This document shows positions 31,633-40,486 of a stretch of 41,050 bases of DNA, piece by piece. This stretch comes from Anaerolineaceae bacterium 4572_78. GTDB taxonomy: Bacteria > Chloroflexota > Anaerolineae > 4572-78. Made by a program: the position numbers and the translations under genes. Within the stretch, counting starts at the first letter, position 1; every line of letters starts with the position of its first letter. The notes beneath the pieces were generated by a model. The model had not been told where the DNA came from and did not search any database. It saw nothing but the letters and a program-made list of their open reading frames with translations. The DNA lies in the NCBI GenBank assembly GCA_002084875.1, contig NBMH01000015.1, positions 1 to 41,050 on the forward strand, written 5' to 3'.

Positions 31633-34600
31633 ATGAATACATCTTATGACTTTTCAAAATGTGCCGTTTCAAGGACGGCATTTACACTTATCGTTAGCTT
31701 GTTAATGATACTGGCATTGCAAAGAGTTGCATCTGCTCAATCGATTGAAATTAGTATTTCCGATAATCCAGACCCAGTGATGCCTGGTGAGGTATTGACT
31801 TATACTGTTGTTGCAAATAATGGTCCTAATTACATGTTCGGTGTGGCAATTACGGATGTGTTAGATATGAATGTACATTACATCACCGCAACTAATAACC
31901 CCATCTATCACCCCACCTCGAATTTTGGTGGTGAGGCATTGGAATGGTATCTGGCAGATATTCCATCACAAAGTACTATTCAAGAAACGGTCATTGTTAC
32001 GGTTGATAGTATGATAAGTGGCACAATGTTGAATAACATGGTGATGGTCGTTCAAGAAGGGCAACTTGTTGCTGAGGGTAATGAAAACACACTTATCGTT
32101 AACGATGGACAAACCGATGGTCACATCACAGGTTATGTCCATGACGCAATGAATAATCCTTTAGAAGGTATCATGGTGGAAGCCTATTCTAATATAAGTG
32201 CAACCTGGATGATGTACCAAGAAAGTTGGTCAAACAATAATGGCTATTACGATATAGCTGGTCTGCCCGATGATACCTATCGGGTTTGCTTCATTGATTC
32301 TTCACAAACTTATGAGCATCAATGTTATAGCTATGCCACAGATATTTTCAGTGCAACGGATATTGTGGTAAGTAGTGGGGCTGTTATTACAGGTATTAAT
32401 GGTTATCTTAACCCTATAGGTGGTATGCATGACCATGGCGTAGTAAACGGTCATGTCAGTAACGTGCAACAAACTCCTCTGATGAGCATTGAAGTCGGTC
32501 TATATTCCGAATATGACAATGACACTGGTGAAATATTGTGGCATCCCATGTATTTTGGTATGACTGATGCAAATGGTTATTTTGAATTTACTGGTTTGGT
32601 CAGTGACACCTATCGTGTTGGCTTCATGGATTACGAAAATTATTACCTGACTGAATTTTATGATGATGTTCATGATGTCATGTCTGCTACTGATATATTT
32701 GTTATGGACGGCATGACCACTACTATTGATGCCATGTTAGATGTAGCTGGAGCTATTAGTGGTACCGTAACAGATGATAACGGAATACTATTGCCATACA
32801 TCCAAGTTCAAGTATTCGACACTTTAAGCTACACAAATGACTATAGTGATACTAATGGCAAACACGGCTGGTCAAGCCAAACAGATGAGTTTGGTCGTTA
32901 TCATGTCGGCGGTCTGCCCACAAATGAATACTATGTCGAATTTATTGACTCCACTGGACAACACCTCCCCGAATTTTACAACAATGTTACTAACATTATG
33001 TCAGCGACATTGGTTTCGGTCATGCAAGGGCAAACCACACCTGATGTTGATGCCGTATTGTCATCAGGTGGAAGCATTGAAGGAATCGTAACCAATAATC
33101 AAAATGAACCACTTGGTGGCATTAAGGTGACAGCTTATGTGTATGACATTTCGAACGAGACATGGGATGAAACAGGTTTTGGATACACTGTACATGTCTC
33201 AACAAATGCATTTTCAAACACAGTCCCTGGCTCCTATAGCATTGGTGCTTTAGCCGATGGCATGTACCGCATTGGTTTCTATGATTATCAAAATATTTAT
33301 GCAGGTGAATATTATGATGATGCTACAACCATTCATGACGCAACAGATATTATAATCTTTAATGGTGCTACCGTCAGTGGTATTGATGCTGTCCTATCTA
33401 AAGGCGGGCATATCACTGGTACAATCGCTACAGAAGATGGGCAACCATTCTATGAAATTGAATCGAGTGTTTATCAGCATGACTCATCTACCAATGATTG
33501 GGAACTTGTCCGCTCAATGTATATCCACAATTACACAAATACTACCACTACAACCGATACATTTTTCTATGATATTGGTGGCTTAGCAACTGGCGTTTAT
33601 CGTCTTGGTTTCTATGATTATAGCAATCGTTTACAAGGAGAATTTTATGATGATGCTACCGATGTCTACAGTGCTACAGATATTTCTGTCATTGCAGAGC
33701 AAACAACACCTGACATCAACGTGGTCTTGTCATCTGCACCTCAGATATGGGGTACAGTGAGTTGTGCCAATGGTGTTATGTTAGATTGGGGCAATGTCGA
33801 GGCGAATCAACTTGATGGTACGAATTGGATATTTGTAAACAGTACCGATGTTTATACGGATGGTAACTATCAACTACACTTAAATTATGGCACCTATCGC
33901 ATTCATTTCTCTGGTCAATGTGGTGATGTCTACCATGAAGAGTATTATAACAATGCCGCCGACATTGACAGTGCAGATGATATCATTATTCAAGGTGACA
34001 TGGGGATTCCAAACATCAGTGCTGTTTTAGGCGACTTGCAAAATTATGCACCTCACGCCGAATTTGACGAGGCATTTACCGATGAGGACATGTCCATTAT
34101 GATTGATGTTCTTTGGAATGACCATGACCCCGATGGTGATCATTTAACCTTATTGTATGTTGGACAAGGCATGGATGGTAACACTCATGCCAGTGGCAAT
34201 GTGATTACCTATACTCCTAACCTTGATTTTAATGGGACAGATATTTTCTCTTACACGATTACAGATGGCGACCTAATTGCTACTGCGGGCGTAACTGTCA
34301 CAGTTTATCCTGTCAACGACCCACCTGTCGCCGATGACATGCATATAACTACCGATGAAGATACAGAGGCTCACATTCAATTTCCCGTTTACGATGATGA
34401 TTTTAGTAATTTGACAATTGGATTTGACAATCCTGCTAATGGTTATGTTGAGATGGGTTCGACTTATGACCATGTGATATATACTCCAAACGAAAACTTT
34501 TTTGGAGATGACAGTTTTAGCTACTTTGCCCATGACGGTGAATTTACAACTACTGCAGTGGTCAGCATTAACGTACTCGCAATCAATGATGCCCCGAATG

Positions 34601-37600
34601 TCCATGATGATTCATATATCGTGGACGAGGATACAATTCTTATCGCCGATGTGTTGGCAAATGATTATGACTTTGAAGGTGATGTGTTAAGTATTACCGA
34701 TGTTATACCATCAATTGATGGTCATGCGACTACCGATGGTAATACCGTAACCTTCACTCCAACTTTGGACTTCAATGGTATTACTTCATTTGAATATACC
34801 GTTAGCGATAATGAATTTACTATTATTGGTACAGCCATTATCACAGTAACGGCGGTCAATGATGCTCCTGAATCTTATGATGATTTTGCCATAACTGCCA
34901 TGAACGTGCCGCGTAACATTGCCGTTTTAGGAAATGACTATGATGTGGATGGTGATGTTTTGTTTGTTGCCGATGTAGGAGCTCCAACAAATGGTACGGT
35001 TACAATTGACAACACAGGTATTAATTATGCACCTAGCGATAACTTTGTTGGCATGGATGTTTTCACCTACACCGCTAGCGATGGTGAGCTGACTGACATG
35101 GCATTAGTAACTGTAACGGTTGAGCAAAGTTTCACCAACACAGCACCCGAAGCAATTCCTGACCAAATATCAACCCTTGAAGATACAGCTGTCATGATTG
35201 ATGTTCTGTTTAATGACTTTGATATTGATGGAGATACACTCTCCATTGAATCAGTCGAGCATGCAACAAATGGCACTGCGACATTCAATGCCAGTAGCAT
35301 CACCTACGAACCGTTTGCAGATTTCAATGGTTCTGATATTTTCACATATACTATCAATGATGGTCAATTAAGCAGTTCAGCACAGGTGTATATCTATGTT
35401 GAATCTGTAAATGACCTGCCAGTCGCCAACGATGATAACATGACTGTTGATGAAGATGGATTTGTTACCGTTGATGTTTTAGCAAATGATACGGATGTTG
35501 ATGGTGACATGCTGACTGTTTCTAATGTTGAACAAGCAACAAACGGTGAAGTCTATTTCAATGCTAATGGCGGTATCGTGTATGAGCCATTCGCCGATTT
35601 CAACGGCAGTGATAGCTTTATTTATCATGTCACTGATGTCTTTAGCGAAACAGCTAGTGCAACCGTTTTTGTTACAGTTTATCCTGTCAACGATGCTCCC
35701 GATGCTTACGAAGATTTTGCTCAAACGGCAGAAAATACGCAACTTATCATAGAACCCTTGCTGAATGATAGTGATAGAGATAGCCTTGTATTCACAATTA
35801 TTGCGGTTGACGACCCTCAAAATGGTATGGTCAGTTTTGATGATTCTACCATCACTTACAATCCTGATGCCAATTTCTTTGGACATGACATATTTAATTA
35901 TACCATCAGTGATGGCGAATTAACCGCTACAGCTAGAATTGAAGTTGCGGTTTATCAGCTTCATCGTGGATTGCTCTTCATCAAAACGGTCGGAGCAAAT
36001 CCAACTGAATGTGCTAACACATTTTTTGTATTTGTTGATAAAGATTCCGAAGTAACCTATTGCTACGAAGTAAATAATACTGGTGAAGTAACATTCGACA
36101 TGCATGACTTGGCTGATGACAAACTTGGTATGTTACTTGATGATTTCACTTATTCCTTAGCCCCAGGTGAATTTTACATGTTCACCACAACGGCTATAAT
36201 TACTCAAGATACAGTCAACAATGCCGTATGGTACGCCACAGACATCAACGGCAATGTTATCTCTCGAACGGCTTCGGCTCACGTGGAAATTGGCGAAACA
36301 GATTTGTATGTCAGCAAATGGCTAAACATGCCCGTTACCTTAGCGGGAAGCGAAATTGAATATCAAATTTACTATAGCAACTGGTCAGAATATCGAGCCT
36401 ATAACGTTCAGGTTACAGATATTCTACCCACCAACTTGAGTTATGTTAATTATAGCGTTTATACATGGGATGAAAATATAGAAGTGACATTATCTGAAGT
36501 ATCAGGAAATACAGTTATGTGGACAATCCCTGAATTGGGTGCTTGGCAAAGTGGGTATATTAACGTTATCGCCCATATTTCTGACTCTGCCAATGAAGGC
36601 GATTTGATAACTAATACCATTACCATTGAGTCTAATACGCCCGATGATAATCCCGATAATAACAGTTATACTCATGTCACAGAAGTGCAGGTTCCGCACC
36701 AAGATGTCGCCATTGAAAAATACACTTATGGGACAGCAGAAGTTGGGGGTTTTATCGATTATTACTTGTATTACTACAATGCAGGCAATACTGAAGTCAG
36801 CGATATTATAATTACAGATACATTGCCGGTCGGCACAACATTTATTGATGAGTACAACTACGAAGGTGTCACTGCCGAATTTAACGGCAATACAATTGTA
36901 TGGCATGTTCCCTCATTATTGCCGTATTGGGGCGGTAGCATCCAAGTAACCGTTCAAGTCAGCGACGATGTTGCAACTGGTACCGAACTGGTAAACGCGG
37001 CTACAATTTCAAGTGCGGGGACAGACGCTCATCCTGAAAATAACATCTATGCCGTAAGCCAAACAGTTTATATTCCTGGTAGCATTTCAGGGATTGCAAC
37101 TGACCCCGATGGCAATCCTGCAACAGGAGCATGGGTTAGCATTTATCATGATGCTGACGGCACGAGCCCATTATCCAACACCAACGAGTCATGGAGCTGG
37201 GCTGGTGGTGCGAATGTTGATGCCAACGGATTTTATCAGGTGGATGGCTTAGAATCAGGCGAATACATCCTTGAATTTTTCTATTGGCCATATCCCTCCG
37301 AATTTTATAATGATGTCACTGAAATTATTAGTGCCACTAATGTGGGAGTTTTTGCTGGTCAAACCACAGCAGGTATTGATGTTCAGTTTAACCGCCCTGT
37401 TCCACCGATTGCTTCAGGTTCAAGTGAAACGGGCTTCATCACCAATGACCCAACTACTGGTGAACTTGAGGTTTGGGTTAATGTCTATCAACCATCTGAC
37501 TTGACTGTAACAAAAGAAATCTCATGCACCGATGGCAGTATACCAACCGATGTTACGCTCATTTTAGAAACAGATAATGGTGCCATCGTCAATTATGCTA

Positions 37601-38523
37601 TGGACTTCCTTGAGGGTTACATGTTCAGTGCAGTTATCCCAGCTGACCAATTGGAAAGCGGCACATTGAGTGTCAGTTACAGTTGTTTCGGAGTCATTAC
37701 AGAGTCTGACATTGGGCATATTCTGATTGACCCCAGCGGGTTTATTACCGATGCTGAAACAGGTGAGCCGATAGTGAATGCAAAGGTCACGCTCTACAAA
37801 TTGGATAATTGGACAACCAAAGAGTCAGCAGCTGATATTCGACCTAACACATGTCATACTTTGGAAACTAGAGGGGACATCACATGGAACAAAATGGTAG
37901 CTGCTCCCGAAGTTGGTCGCCCTGCGAATCCAGCAGCAGACCCGCAAGAAATTGACCCAACAGTCAATCCATTTTACACAGACAGTACTGGTTATTATTC
38001 ATGGGATGTATCTGAAGGATGTTGGTATATCGTTGTCGAAGCAGATGGCTACGAAACACGAGTCAGTCCCGCCGTCGGCATACCCCCTGAAGTGACTGAC
38101 CTTGATTTAACCATGTACAAACATGATTCAATCAAAGTAGAATTTAGTTTGGGTAGTTACTTCGCCACCGAATCAGACGGCACAGTTACCATTGATGTTA
38201 CATTGAGTAATGAGGTAAATCAAGAAGTTACAGTTAAGTATCGTACCAGTGACCTCTCTGCCAAAGCAGGTGAGGACTACACTATTCTAAGTGGTAACTT
38301 AACATTTGAGGCAGGCGAAATAGCTAGGGAAATTGAAGTACCACTCCTTGATGATAAGGTTTCCGAAAGTACGGAAACGTTCAAACTCATCTTAAGTAAT
38401 CCTGTCAATGCCATTTTAGGAGGACGCTCATGGATGACACTGACAATTACAGATGATGATGAGCAAGGTACTCAAATCACAAATGATAATGTAATCTACT
38501 TACCAATTGTATTAAAATGGTAG
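31633..38523 (+). CDS. Giant secreted repeat protein / adhesin (2,296 aa)
   Basis: The start is supported by AGGAG at 31618-31622. A signal peptide covers about residues 1-36 (LIVSLLMILALQRVASAQ). Then come a DUF11-like domain (about 37-155), six carboxypeptidase-regulatory-like beta modules (about 155-800; e.g. ITGYVHDAMNNPLEGIMV and IEGIVTNNQNEPLGGIKV), and seven cadherin-like repeats (about 800-1440; pattern NDAPxxxDDxxxxxEDTxxxxDVLxNDxDxDGD). Two DUF11 domains (about 1555-1815), further beta modules and one Calx-beta domain (about 2165-2280, ending LTITDDDEQG) follow. The Asp-rich loops suggest Ca2+ binding. The tail VIYLPIVLKW resembles a C-terminal signal seen in Chloroflexota surface proteins. 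Likely roles are cell-cell or surface adhesion; no enzyme domain is seen. Confidence 0.9.
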   Translation: MNTSYDFSKCAVSRTAFTLIVSLLMILALQRVASAQSIEISISDNPDPVMPGEVLTYTVVANNGPNYMFGVAITDVLDMNVHYITATNNPIYHPTSNFGGEALEWYLADIPSQSTIQETVIVTVDSMISGTMLNNMVMVVQEGQLVAEGNENTLIVNDGQTDGHITGYVHDAMNNPLEGIMVEAYSNISATWMMYQESWSNNNGYYDIAGLPDDTYRVCFIDSSQTYEHQCYSYATDIFSATDIVVSSGAVITGINGYLNPIGGMHDHGVVNGHVSNVQQTPLMSIEVGLYSEYDNDTGEILWHPMYFGMTDANGYFEFTGLVSDTYRVGFMDYENYYLTEFYDDVHDVMSATDIFVMDGMTTTIDAMLDVAGAISGTVTDDNGILLPYIQVQVFDTLSYTNDYSDTNGKHGWSSQTDEFGRYHVGGLPTNEYYVEFIDSTGQHLPEFYNNVTNIMSATLVSVMQGQTTPDVDAVLSSGGSIEGIVTNNQNEPLGGIKVTAYVYDISNETWDETGFGYTVHVSTNAFSNTVPGSYSIGALADGMYRIGFYDYQNIYAGEYYDDATTIHDATDIIIFNGATVSGIDAVLSKGGHITGTIATEDGQPFYEIESSVYQHDSSTNDWELVRSMYIHNYTNTTTTTDTFFYDIGGLATGVYRLGFYDYSNRLQGEFYDDATDVYSATDISVIAEQTTPDINVVLSSAPQIWGTVSCANGVMLDWGNVEANQLDGTNWIFVNSTDVYTDGNYQLHLNYGTYRIHFSGQCGDVYHEEYYNNAADIDSADDIIIQGDMGIPNISAVLGDLQNYAPHAEFDEAFTDEDMSIMIDVLWNDHDPDGDHLTLLYVGQGMDGNTHASGNVITYTPNLDFNGTDIFSYTITDGDLIATAGVTVTVYPVNDPPVADDMHITTDEDTEAHIQFPVYDDDFSNLTIGFDNPANGYVEMGSTYDHVIYTPNENFFGDDSFSYFAHDGEFTTTAVVSINVLAINDAPNVHDDSYIVDEDTILIADVLANDYDFEGDVLSITDVIPSIDGHATTDGNTVTFTPTLDFNGITSFEYTVSDNEFTIIGTAIITVTAVNDAPESYDDFAITAMNVPRNIAVLGNDYDVDGDVLFVADVGAPTNGTVTIDNTGINYAPSDNFVGMDVFTYTASDGELTDMALVTVTVEQSFTNTAPEAIPDQISTLEDTAVMIDVLFNDFDIDGDTLSIESVEHATNGTATFNASSITYEPFADFNGSDIFTYTINDGQLSSSAQVYIYVESVNDLPVANDDNMTVDEDGFVTVDVLANDTDVDGDMLTVSNVEQATNGEVYFNANGGIVYEPFADFNGSDSFIYHVTDVFSETASATVFVTVYPVNDAPDAYEDFAQTAENTQLIIEPLLNDSDRDSLVFTIIAVDDPQNGMVSFDDSTITYNPDANFFGHDIFNYTISDGELTATARIEVAVYQLHRGLLFIKTVGANPTECANTFFVFVDKDSEVTYCYEVNNTGEVTFDMHDLADDKLGMLLDDFTYSLAPGEFYMFTTTAIITQDTVNNAVWYATDINGNVISRTASAHVEIGETDLYVSKWLNMPVTLAGSEIEYQIYYSNWSEYRAYNVQVTDILPTNLSYVNYSVYTWDENIEVTLSEVSGNTVMWTIPELGAWQSGYINVIAHISDSANEGDLITNTITIESNTPDDNPDNNSYTHVTEVQVPHQDVAIEKYTYGTAEVGGFIDYYLYYYNAGNTEVSDIIITDTLPVGTTFIDEYNYEGVTAEFNGNTIVWHVPSLLPYWGGSIQVTVQVSDDVATGTELVNAATISSAGTDAHPENNIYAVSQTVYIPGSISGIATDPDGNPATGAWVSIYHDADGTSPLSNTNESWSWAGGANVDANGFYQVDGLESGEYILEFFYWPYPSEFYNDVTEIISATNVGVFAGQTTAGIDVQFNRPVPPIASGSSETGFITNDPTTGELEVWVNVYQPSDLTVTKEISCTDGSIPTDVTLILETDNGAIVNYAMDFLEGYMFSAVIPADQLESGTLSVSYSCFGVITESDIGHILIDPSGFITDAETGEPIVNAKVTLYKLDNWTTKESAADIRPNTCHTLETRGDITWNKMVAAPEVGRPANPAADPQEIDPTVNPFYTDSTGYYSWDVSEGCWYIVVEADGYETRVSPAVGIPPEVTDLDLTMYKHDSIKVEFSLGSYFATESDGTVTIDVTLSNEVNQEVTVKYRTSDLSAKAGEDYTILSGNLTFEAGEIAREIEVPLLDDKVSESTETFKLILSNPVNAILGGRSWMTLTITDDDEQGTQITNDNVIYLPIVLKW

Positions 38524-38540
38524 GAGATGGAAATCCCATT

Positions 38541-38610
38541 CCCCTCTCCTCGCATGGAGAGAGGAGTCCGCAATCTTTGGCAGACTCCCCTCTCCTAAGT
38601 AGGGGAGGGG
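38541..38610. terminator. Paired GC-rich hairpins between convergent adhesin and gyrB
   Basis: CTCTCC/GGAGAG (38544-38561) and CCCCTCTCCT / AGGGGAGGGG (38587-38610, one mismatch) flank GAGTC/GACTC arms (38564-38586). Sitting between two converging genes, they are likely to stop transcription from both sides, although T-runs are weak. They belong to the dispersed GC-rich hairpin class. Confidence 0.5.
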
Positions 38611-38627
38611 GTTGGGGGTGGGGTCTC

Positions 38628-40486
<1,859 letters not shown>

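Follow-up and report, generated by a model that had tools for sequence, protein, structure and literature searches.

A secreted protein with a YLP tail

The window (the whole stretch of DNA analysed, 41,050 nucleotides) carries a gene for a large secreted protein (Table 1), in which Pfam recognizes four CarboxypepD_reg, seven Big_9/cadherin-like and three DUF11 domains and a single Calx-beta domain. Its signal peptide is likely cut between ASA and Q, a site read by eye. The translation terminates in ...TITDDDEQGTQITNDNVIYLPIVLKW*, with YLPIVLKW at 38497-38520 and the stop codon at 38521-38523. The Calx-beta domain (PF03160, 6.2e-23) covers profile positions 4-118 of 119, and a second profile comparison aligned it to 119/119, with an end at residue 2275-2276. 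Because the profile match is complete before the tail is reached, the tail lies outside the domain. A first-pass annotation of this DNA had VIYLPIVLKW end the protein shortly after its last folded domain, which is exact, the two being separated by the 11-residue linker.

Directly 3' of the tailed gene lie G+C-rich inverted repeats of the CCCCTCTCC / GGAGAGG type; another locus (L066) seems to read through a similar inverted-repeat element after its YLP motif. The neighbouring gyrB-like gene is split into two ORFs, which suggests a frameshift, from assembly or mutation.

Table 1. Coordinates of the tailed gene, its parts and adjacent features in the window
Feature	Position	Strand	Basis
Gene, 2296-aa secreted multidomain protein	31633..38523	+	Translation, Pfam
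Signal peptide, residues 1-35	31633..31737	+	Hydrophobic stretch from residue 11
Calx-beta domain, residues 2165-2275	38125..38457	+	Pfam and AlphaFold2 model
Linker DEQGTQITNDN, residues 2276-2286 (11 residues)	38458..38490	+	From the Pfam domain boundary to the motif
YLP-box tail VIYLPIVLKW, residues 2287-2296	38491..38520	+	Translation, motif search
Tail core YLPIVLK	38497..38517	+	Terminal-carrier profile (n = 108)
G+C-rich inverted repeats	38524..38630		
gyrB-like gene	38628..40486	-	Named by eye
gyrB-like gene, one ORF	38628..39521	-	
gyrB-like gene, other ORF	39584..40486	-	

A protein-level motif at the C-terminus

The codon pattern TAYYTNCCNNTNNTNNTNMRN, which encodes Y-[LF]-P followed by three residues, hydrophobic for the most part, and one that is K/R/H/Q-like, occurs at 74 sites in the genome of the window (G000; 4.10 Mb, 82% complete), compared with 14 for the reversed pattern. 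When a stop-like codon is required right after the K/R position, the counts are 23 and 0; as the stop-like TRR is matched by TGG too, the window site is included through its W codon. After 17 of the 74 sites were dropped (position 5 not I or V, or H/Q at position 7), the 57 kept sites comprised 54 different 20-mers, and YLPIIL was spelled in 13 ways across 16 sites. This synonymous diversity at the DNA level therefore speaks for conservation of the protein sequence and not for a DNA repeat. The tail is a selected, modular element of about eight residues, [IV]-Y-L-P-[LI]-[VI]-[LVIM]-[KR]-end.

Distinct motif-bearing ORFs were collected from the sites of this genome, of its relatives G402 and G404 and of named public contigs, leaving out of the position count ORFs shorter than 90 residues and those open at the 3' end. 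The motif lies within 10 residues of the end in 108 of the 131 ORFs, at 11-25 residues in 4 and deeper inside in 19. With the public contigs excluded, as their pattern demanded a stop-like codon, it is terminal in 64 of 85 ORFs, at 11-25 residues in 4 and internal in 17, where even placement would predict about 0.9 terminal motifs.

Among the 108 terminal carriers, the stop follows position 7 immediately in 91, and V or I precedes Y in 92. Position 4 is mostly L (85) or I (20), position 5 V (83) or I (25), position 6 L (62), V (24), I (12) or M (10), and position 7 K (55), R (50), H (2) or N (1), frequencies that, like those of Y-L-P, were partly imposed by the patterns that fetched the sites. 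Most carriers finish on K or R, and the extra W of the window protein is unusual: its tail, VIYLPIVLK-W-stop, runs one residue beyond the mode. It has the form YLP-[LI]-[VI]-x-[KR] at the C-terminus of a protein with a signal peptide.

The ratio of K to R at position 7 follows the GC content of the locus, from 27:2 (<45%) through 14:7 (45-55%) and 10:16 (55-60%) to 4:25 (>60%), and the bulk K:R ratio of the same proteins moves in the same direction. As tail and bulk shift alike with GC, a linkage specific to K is unlikely. The internal copies (17 of 85) often precede a Thr/Pro linker and a further domain, and one of them, YLPLILKN, is kept at the same place in two genomes of one genus (loci L152 and L169).

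Distribution and carriers

At least one site is present in 24 of the 25 genomes of the order (313 sites, versus 4 for the control), and the strict tail is present in 55 of 400 genomes sampled evenly across the phylum. When named genomes were scanned with a single codon choice, 61 stretches were returned, 46 of them from Chloroflexota by record title and 15 from other phyla. All 46 are in-frame ends, three of them closed frames no longer than 50 codons (L187, L217, L233), and their carriers include Oscillochloris, Viridilinea, Roseiflexus, Herpetosiphonaceae, Anaerolineae, Caldilineae, Thermoflexales and others. No frame ends at 12 of the 15 stretches from other phyla. Of the three that do coincide with an end, two close frames of 29 and 18 codons (L214 and L218), and the third (L205) belongs to a frame that is open at its 5' end and does not look secreted. 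These 15 stretches, among which we found no convincing tail, were inspected and then excluded from the carriers.

Some genomes negative by the strict pattern have looser tails: YLPYVVK, YMPYVVK, YLPAVIK, FLPMTTR, YLPRIER and WLPLVK in the Herpetosiphon-like G034, G043 and G078, and YLPIALR and FLPSINK in G283. Thus, the strict pattern understates the range. A second, stop-free pattern gave 0-3 sites in 38 tail-negative genomes, about the control level. In the genomes scanned, the tail is found as such only in Chloroflexota.

BLAST grouping assigned 92 carriers to 64 families, the biggest with six tailed members, and a Pfam scan of 109 carriers matched 95 families, the commonest in nine. DUF11, PKD, Calx-beta, beta-helix, FG-GAP, cohesin, PPC and C25 peptidase are among the domains in their last 350 residues. 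In a simple signal-peptide test limited to complete ORFs of at least 150 residues, 49 of 60 tailed ORFs passed compared with 93 of the 303 remaining ORFs in these loci (p = 3e-13), and most of the 11 that failed look, by eye, like gene fragments starting within secreted domains. These results bear out the first-pass claim that such tails end many unrelated secreted Chloroflexota proteins. The tail had also been described as free of a sortase motif and of a long hydrophobic helix; accordingly, an LPXTG-like motif occurs in none of the 108 terminal carriers, and just two have a TM-like stretch within their final 45 residues, so that such a helix is nearly always absent.

Choice-of-anchor domains, in NCBI naming, precede different surface anchors. 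Choice-of-anchor Q is present in 8 and choice-of-anchor D in 2 of the 109 carriers; among 10 carriers scanned, in four of the five inspected for spacing (L160, L206, L215 and L137, not L201) the domain ends about 7-15 residues before the tail. Because these domains end right before it, the tail occupies the place of an anchor.

Relation to known sorting signals

NCBIfam release 20 holds two models, NF050076.1 (sort_motif_YLP; cut-off 15 bits) and NF053834.1 (ultrashort_CTERM; 10 bits), both described as 'YLP-box putative sorting motif' and considered here by name and description. The models represent the same motif in the same place as in our carriers, and their descriptions name neither internal copies nor a machine. 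At E 0.01, NF050076 matched 7 of 109 carriers. Both models match the ends of L164, L174, L189, L222, L215 and L173 at profile positions 1-3 to 10-11, and some carriers exceed the cut-offs, L222 for example with 17.1 and 14.3 bits. Neither model matched the window tail up to E 10, in the whole protein or its C-terminal 100 residues, which leaves it short of the cut-offs. The YLP tail is thus already catalogued by NCBI as a putative sorting motif, and the window tail joins that kind. Our literature searches on Chloroflexota sorting and CTERM signals, including parts of PMC11980579 and PMC12617251, gave no account of it. The first-pass view that such tails have no described sorting machine therefore holds for the machine, which is neither named in NCBIfam nor found in this literature, but the motif itself is catalogued.

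Like the tripartite CTERM signals (LPXTG/sortase, PEP-CTERM/exosortase, GlyGly-CTERM/rhombosortase and MYXO-CTERM/myxosortase), the YLP tail is short, C-terminal and shared by many secreted proteins of unrelated families, with a basic end and, in some carriers, a choice-of-anchor domain in front. Unlike them, it has no transmembrane helix between motif and basic end (TM-like in 2 of 108) and no signature Thr-Gly, PEP or invariant Cys; in comparison with MYXO-CTERM, any Cys falls within the last 20 residues in just 8 of 108 carriers. It also differs from LPXTG and PEP-CTERM in that its occurrence does not follow that of sortase and exosortase genes. The C-terminal domain of type IX secretion shares basic last residues with the YLP tail but is an 80-residue domain, whereas the tail has eight residues. 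C25 peptidases related to PorU accompany the tail, and some carry it, but this link is no stronger than that of a Calx-beta control.

Search for partner machinery

The tail could be a processed sorting signal, in which an extracytoplasmic peptidase or transpeptidase would recognize LP-x-V near the end and remove the last residues, and may couple the carrier to a lipid, a glycan or a component of the wall, in the manner of sortase, exosortase and PorU. The strict terminal position, with 91 of 108 tails ending right behind K/R, and the choice-of-anchor domains ahead of the tail favour this explanation. We compared 32 tail-positive with 38 strict-tail-negative genomes, a panel of our own choosing with statistics that ignore phylogeny and an imperfect negative set, as the pattern was strict and G034, G043, G078 and G283 carry looser tails. 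Sortase was found in 30/32 tail-positive and 33/38 tail-negative genomes, and not in the tail-bearing G168 (97% complete) and G343 (95%); exosortase was found in 4/32 and 3/38. Both distributions argue against a processed signal, as does the lack of a transmembrane segment in nearly all tails.

C25 (PorU-like) peptidases offer the processing explanation more, being present in 29/32 tail-positive versus 11/38 tail-negative genomes (p ~1e-7) and, at several loci, themselves ending in YLP tails. However, the control domain Calx-beta is equally skewed (28/32 versus 10/38, p ~2e-7), C25 was not found in the tail-bearing G406, G414 and G276, and the C25 carrier L075 scores 147 bits, far under the PorU cut-off of 420. 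Because the control shows the same skew, the C25 link is no better than a marker of a rich secretome, and we rejected a C25/PorU-like peptidase as the processing enzyme. NF053835 (PDIAV_lipo), with an accession adjacent to that of ultrashort_CTERM, was likewise rejected as a partner, passing its cut-off in 2/32 and 2/38 genomes. A search for SprA, the translocon of type IX secretion, matched 0/32 tail-positive genomes and none of the control genomes.

No membrane protease or transporter was prominent among the genes that recur next to tailed ones. An ABC-type ATPase family was such a neighbour in 5 loci, and among the recurring non-tailed neighbours a repeat protein beside small tailed proteins alone looked relevant. 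These small proteins (L149, L150, L151, L154, L159, L167, L206 and L209; several SGGGYSLNGGFW-like) adjoin long repeat proteins that start with an FTYQG-type domain, a family seen in 8 loci of 4 genomes. The phylogenetic profile that the first-pass annotation had proposed for a co-occurring membrane protease was thus run for chosen families, and yielded no specific partner. No enzyme family tested is required by the tail.

Other gene arrangements were observed around these enzymes. A cluster of radical-SAM, C25 and sortase genes, named by eye, recurs in L271, L272, L274 and L247 (G034, G070, G043 and G401), together with a protein of about 276-322 residues and an LPXTG-like protein (cut off in L272). 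L271 and L274 add a PqqD-like small protein, and L274 and L247 an S24/S26-like peptidase; the cluster resembles a modified-peptide cassette. On G402:C382 (L276) an exosortase gene adjoins a C25 peptidase ending in YLPLVAR, and in G168 and G343, which gave no sortase match, a radical-SAM-like gene precedes a C25 peptidase (L278, L279). C25 matches are most numerous in G011 (8), G184, G361 and G000 (5 each), all but G000 with exosortase; G184 and G361 have no strict YLP tails.

The internal copies bear on processing as well. As motif copies are conserved inside proteins, a tag that acts by terminal processing only is disfavoured. Together with the free exchange of K and R, these copies point to a docked beta-strand more than to a signal that is processed and specific for K. 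The title of a paper cited in PMC11980579 reports that an archaeal sorting enzyme processes a non-C-terminal signal, and internal copies are thus compatible with processing. On balance we consider a processed signal rather unlikely.

The tail and the Calx-beta fold

The tail might also be a structural end strand that completes or caps the carrier's own last beta-sandwich, with no partner in trans. Its sequence is hydrophobic and strand-like, beta-sandwich domains occur in many carriers, and 17 of the 19 internal motifs are followed by N, S, T, D or G, as at the end of a strand. An AlphaFold2 model of a 137-residue construct (7 sequences, pLDDT 76; an earlier model with pLDDT 35 was not used) assigns a strand to YLPIV at model residues 130-134, with local pLDDT of about 65-70. 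As this strand lies within the same chain, packing on its own domain is possible in the window protein.

Against an end strand, solved Calx-beta domains match model residues 6-119 (residues 2165-2278 of the window protein) with Z ~11 and, in the first twelve matches, rmsd 2.4-3.0 over 100-110 residues; the tail, at model residues 130-137, lies beyond this fold. A phmmer alignment with the Calx-beta construct 3e9t, which has 114 residues, extends no further than query residue 117, and the VIA-align matches that reach the tail are Asf1-like (4rrp, 1roc, 1wg3) with Z ~8, the level of a common arrangement. Additionally, Calx-beta proteins of the tail-less G065 and G318 stop at the domain end (...TIQNDD and ...WIMNDD), which makes the tail an addition to the domain. 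Viral-contig searches for Calx-beta relatives returned 0 and 2 loci. The tail also follows Thr/Pro linkers (L065, L100, L167) and C25 peptidases. The first-pass annotation would have been overturned by a motif confined to one homologous family and explained as its last strand; the tail instead spans many families and, in the window protein, lies past the last strand of the domain. We regard an end strand as improbable.

Discussion

We favour, with moderate confidence, the explanation that the YLP tail is a short C-terminal sorting or attachment (retention) tag of the Chloroflexota secretome. Judged from sequence, surface sorting or retention is its most likely function; the first-pass annotation had proposed that it may be an uncharacterised signal for export or attachment. 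Carriers would be exported by Sec, with the tail emerging last, on the outer side, where a putative common envelope receptor would bind it as an extended beta-strand. Such a shared receptor would give unrelated proteins one cell-surface destination. Docking of this kind would require neither cleavage nor transpeptidation, and none seems needed because there is no membrane-holding helix, the choice of K or R follows base composition and internal copies are kept.

Non-covalent docking, taken as a version of the tag on its own, is proposed tentatively. The observed terminal placement (64 of 85) is stricter than a position-free docking strand needs, and counts against it. Still more speculative is the full form of this idea, a helix-free, internally tolerated beta-strand tag of eight residues by which a single dedicated receptor in the envelope would hold dozens of unrelated exported proteins of each cell, with neither a transpeptidase nor a lipid anchor involved. 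Were it true, which we consider rather unlikely, this helix-free docking code would be a kind of sorting code without a described precedent. A stability or quality-control tag, which would set no address and be sensed at the C-terminus, outside the membrane, by a protease or chaperone, or shield proteins from carboxypeptidases, fits the C-terminal position, the basic last residue and the failure of the sortase and exosortase searches to produce an anchor enzyme, but it leaves both the conserved internal copies and the anchor position behind choice-of-anchor domains unexplained and is very improbable.

As NCBI catalogues the motif, the question raised by the YLP tail is its machine and not its existence. 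If the tail is a sorting tag, it would need no transmembrane segment, unlike the usual three-part C-terminal signals, and its receptor or enzyme would become a tractable target. Such a tag would mark out surface proteins across a widespread phylum, and annotators could recognize them from sequence.
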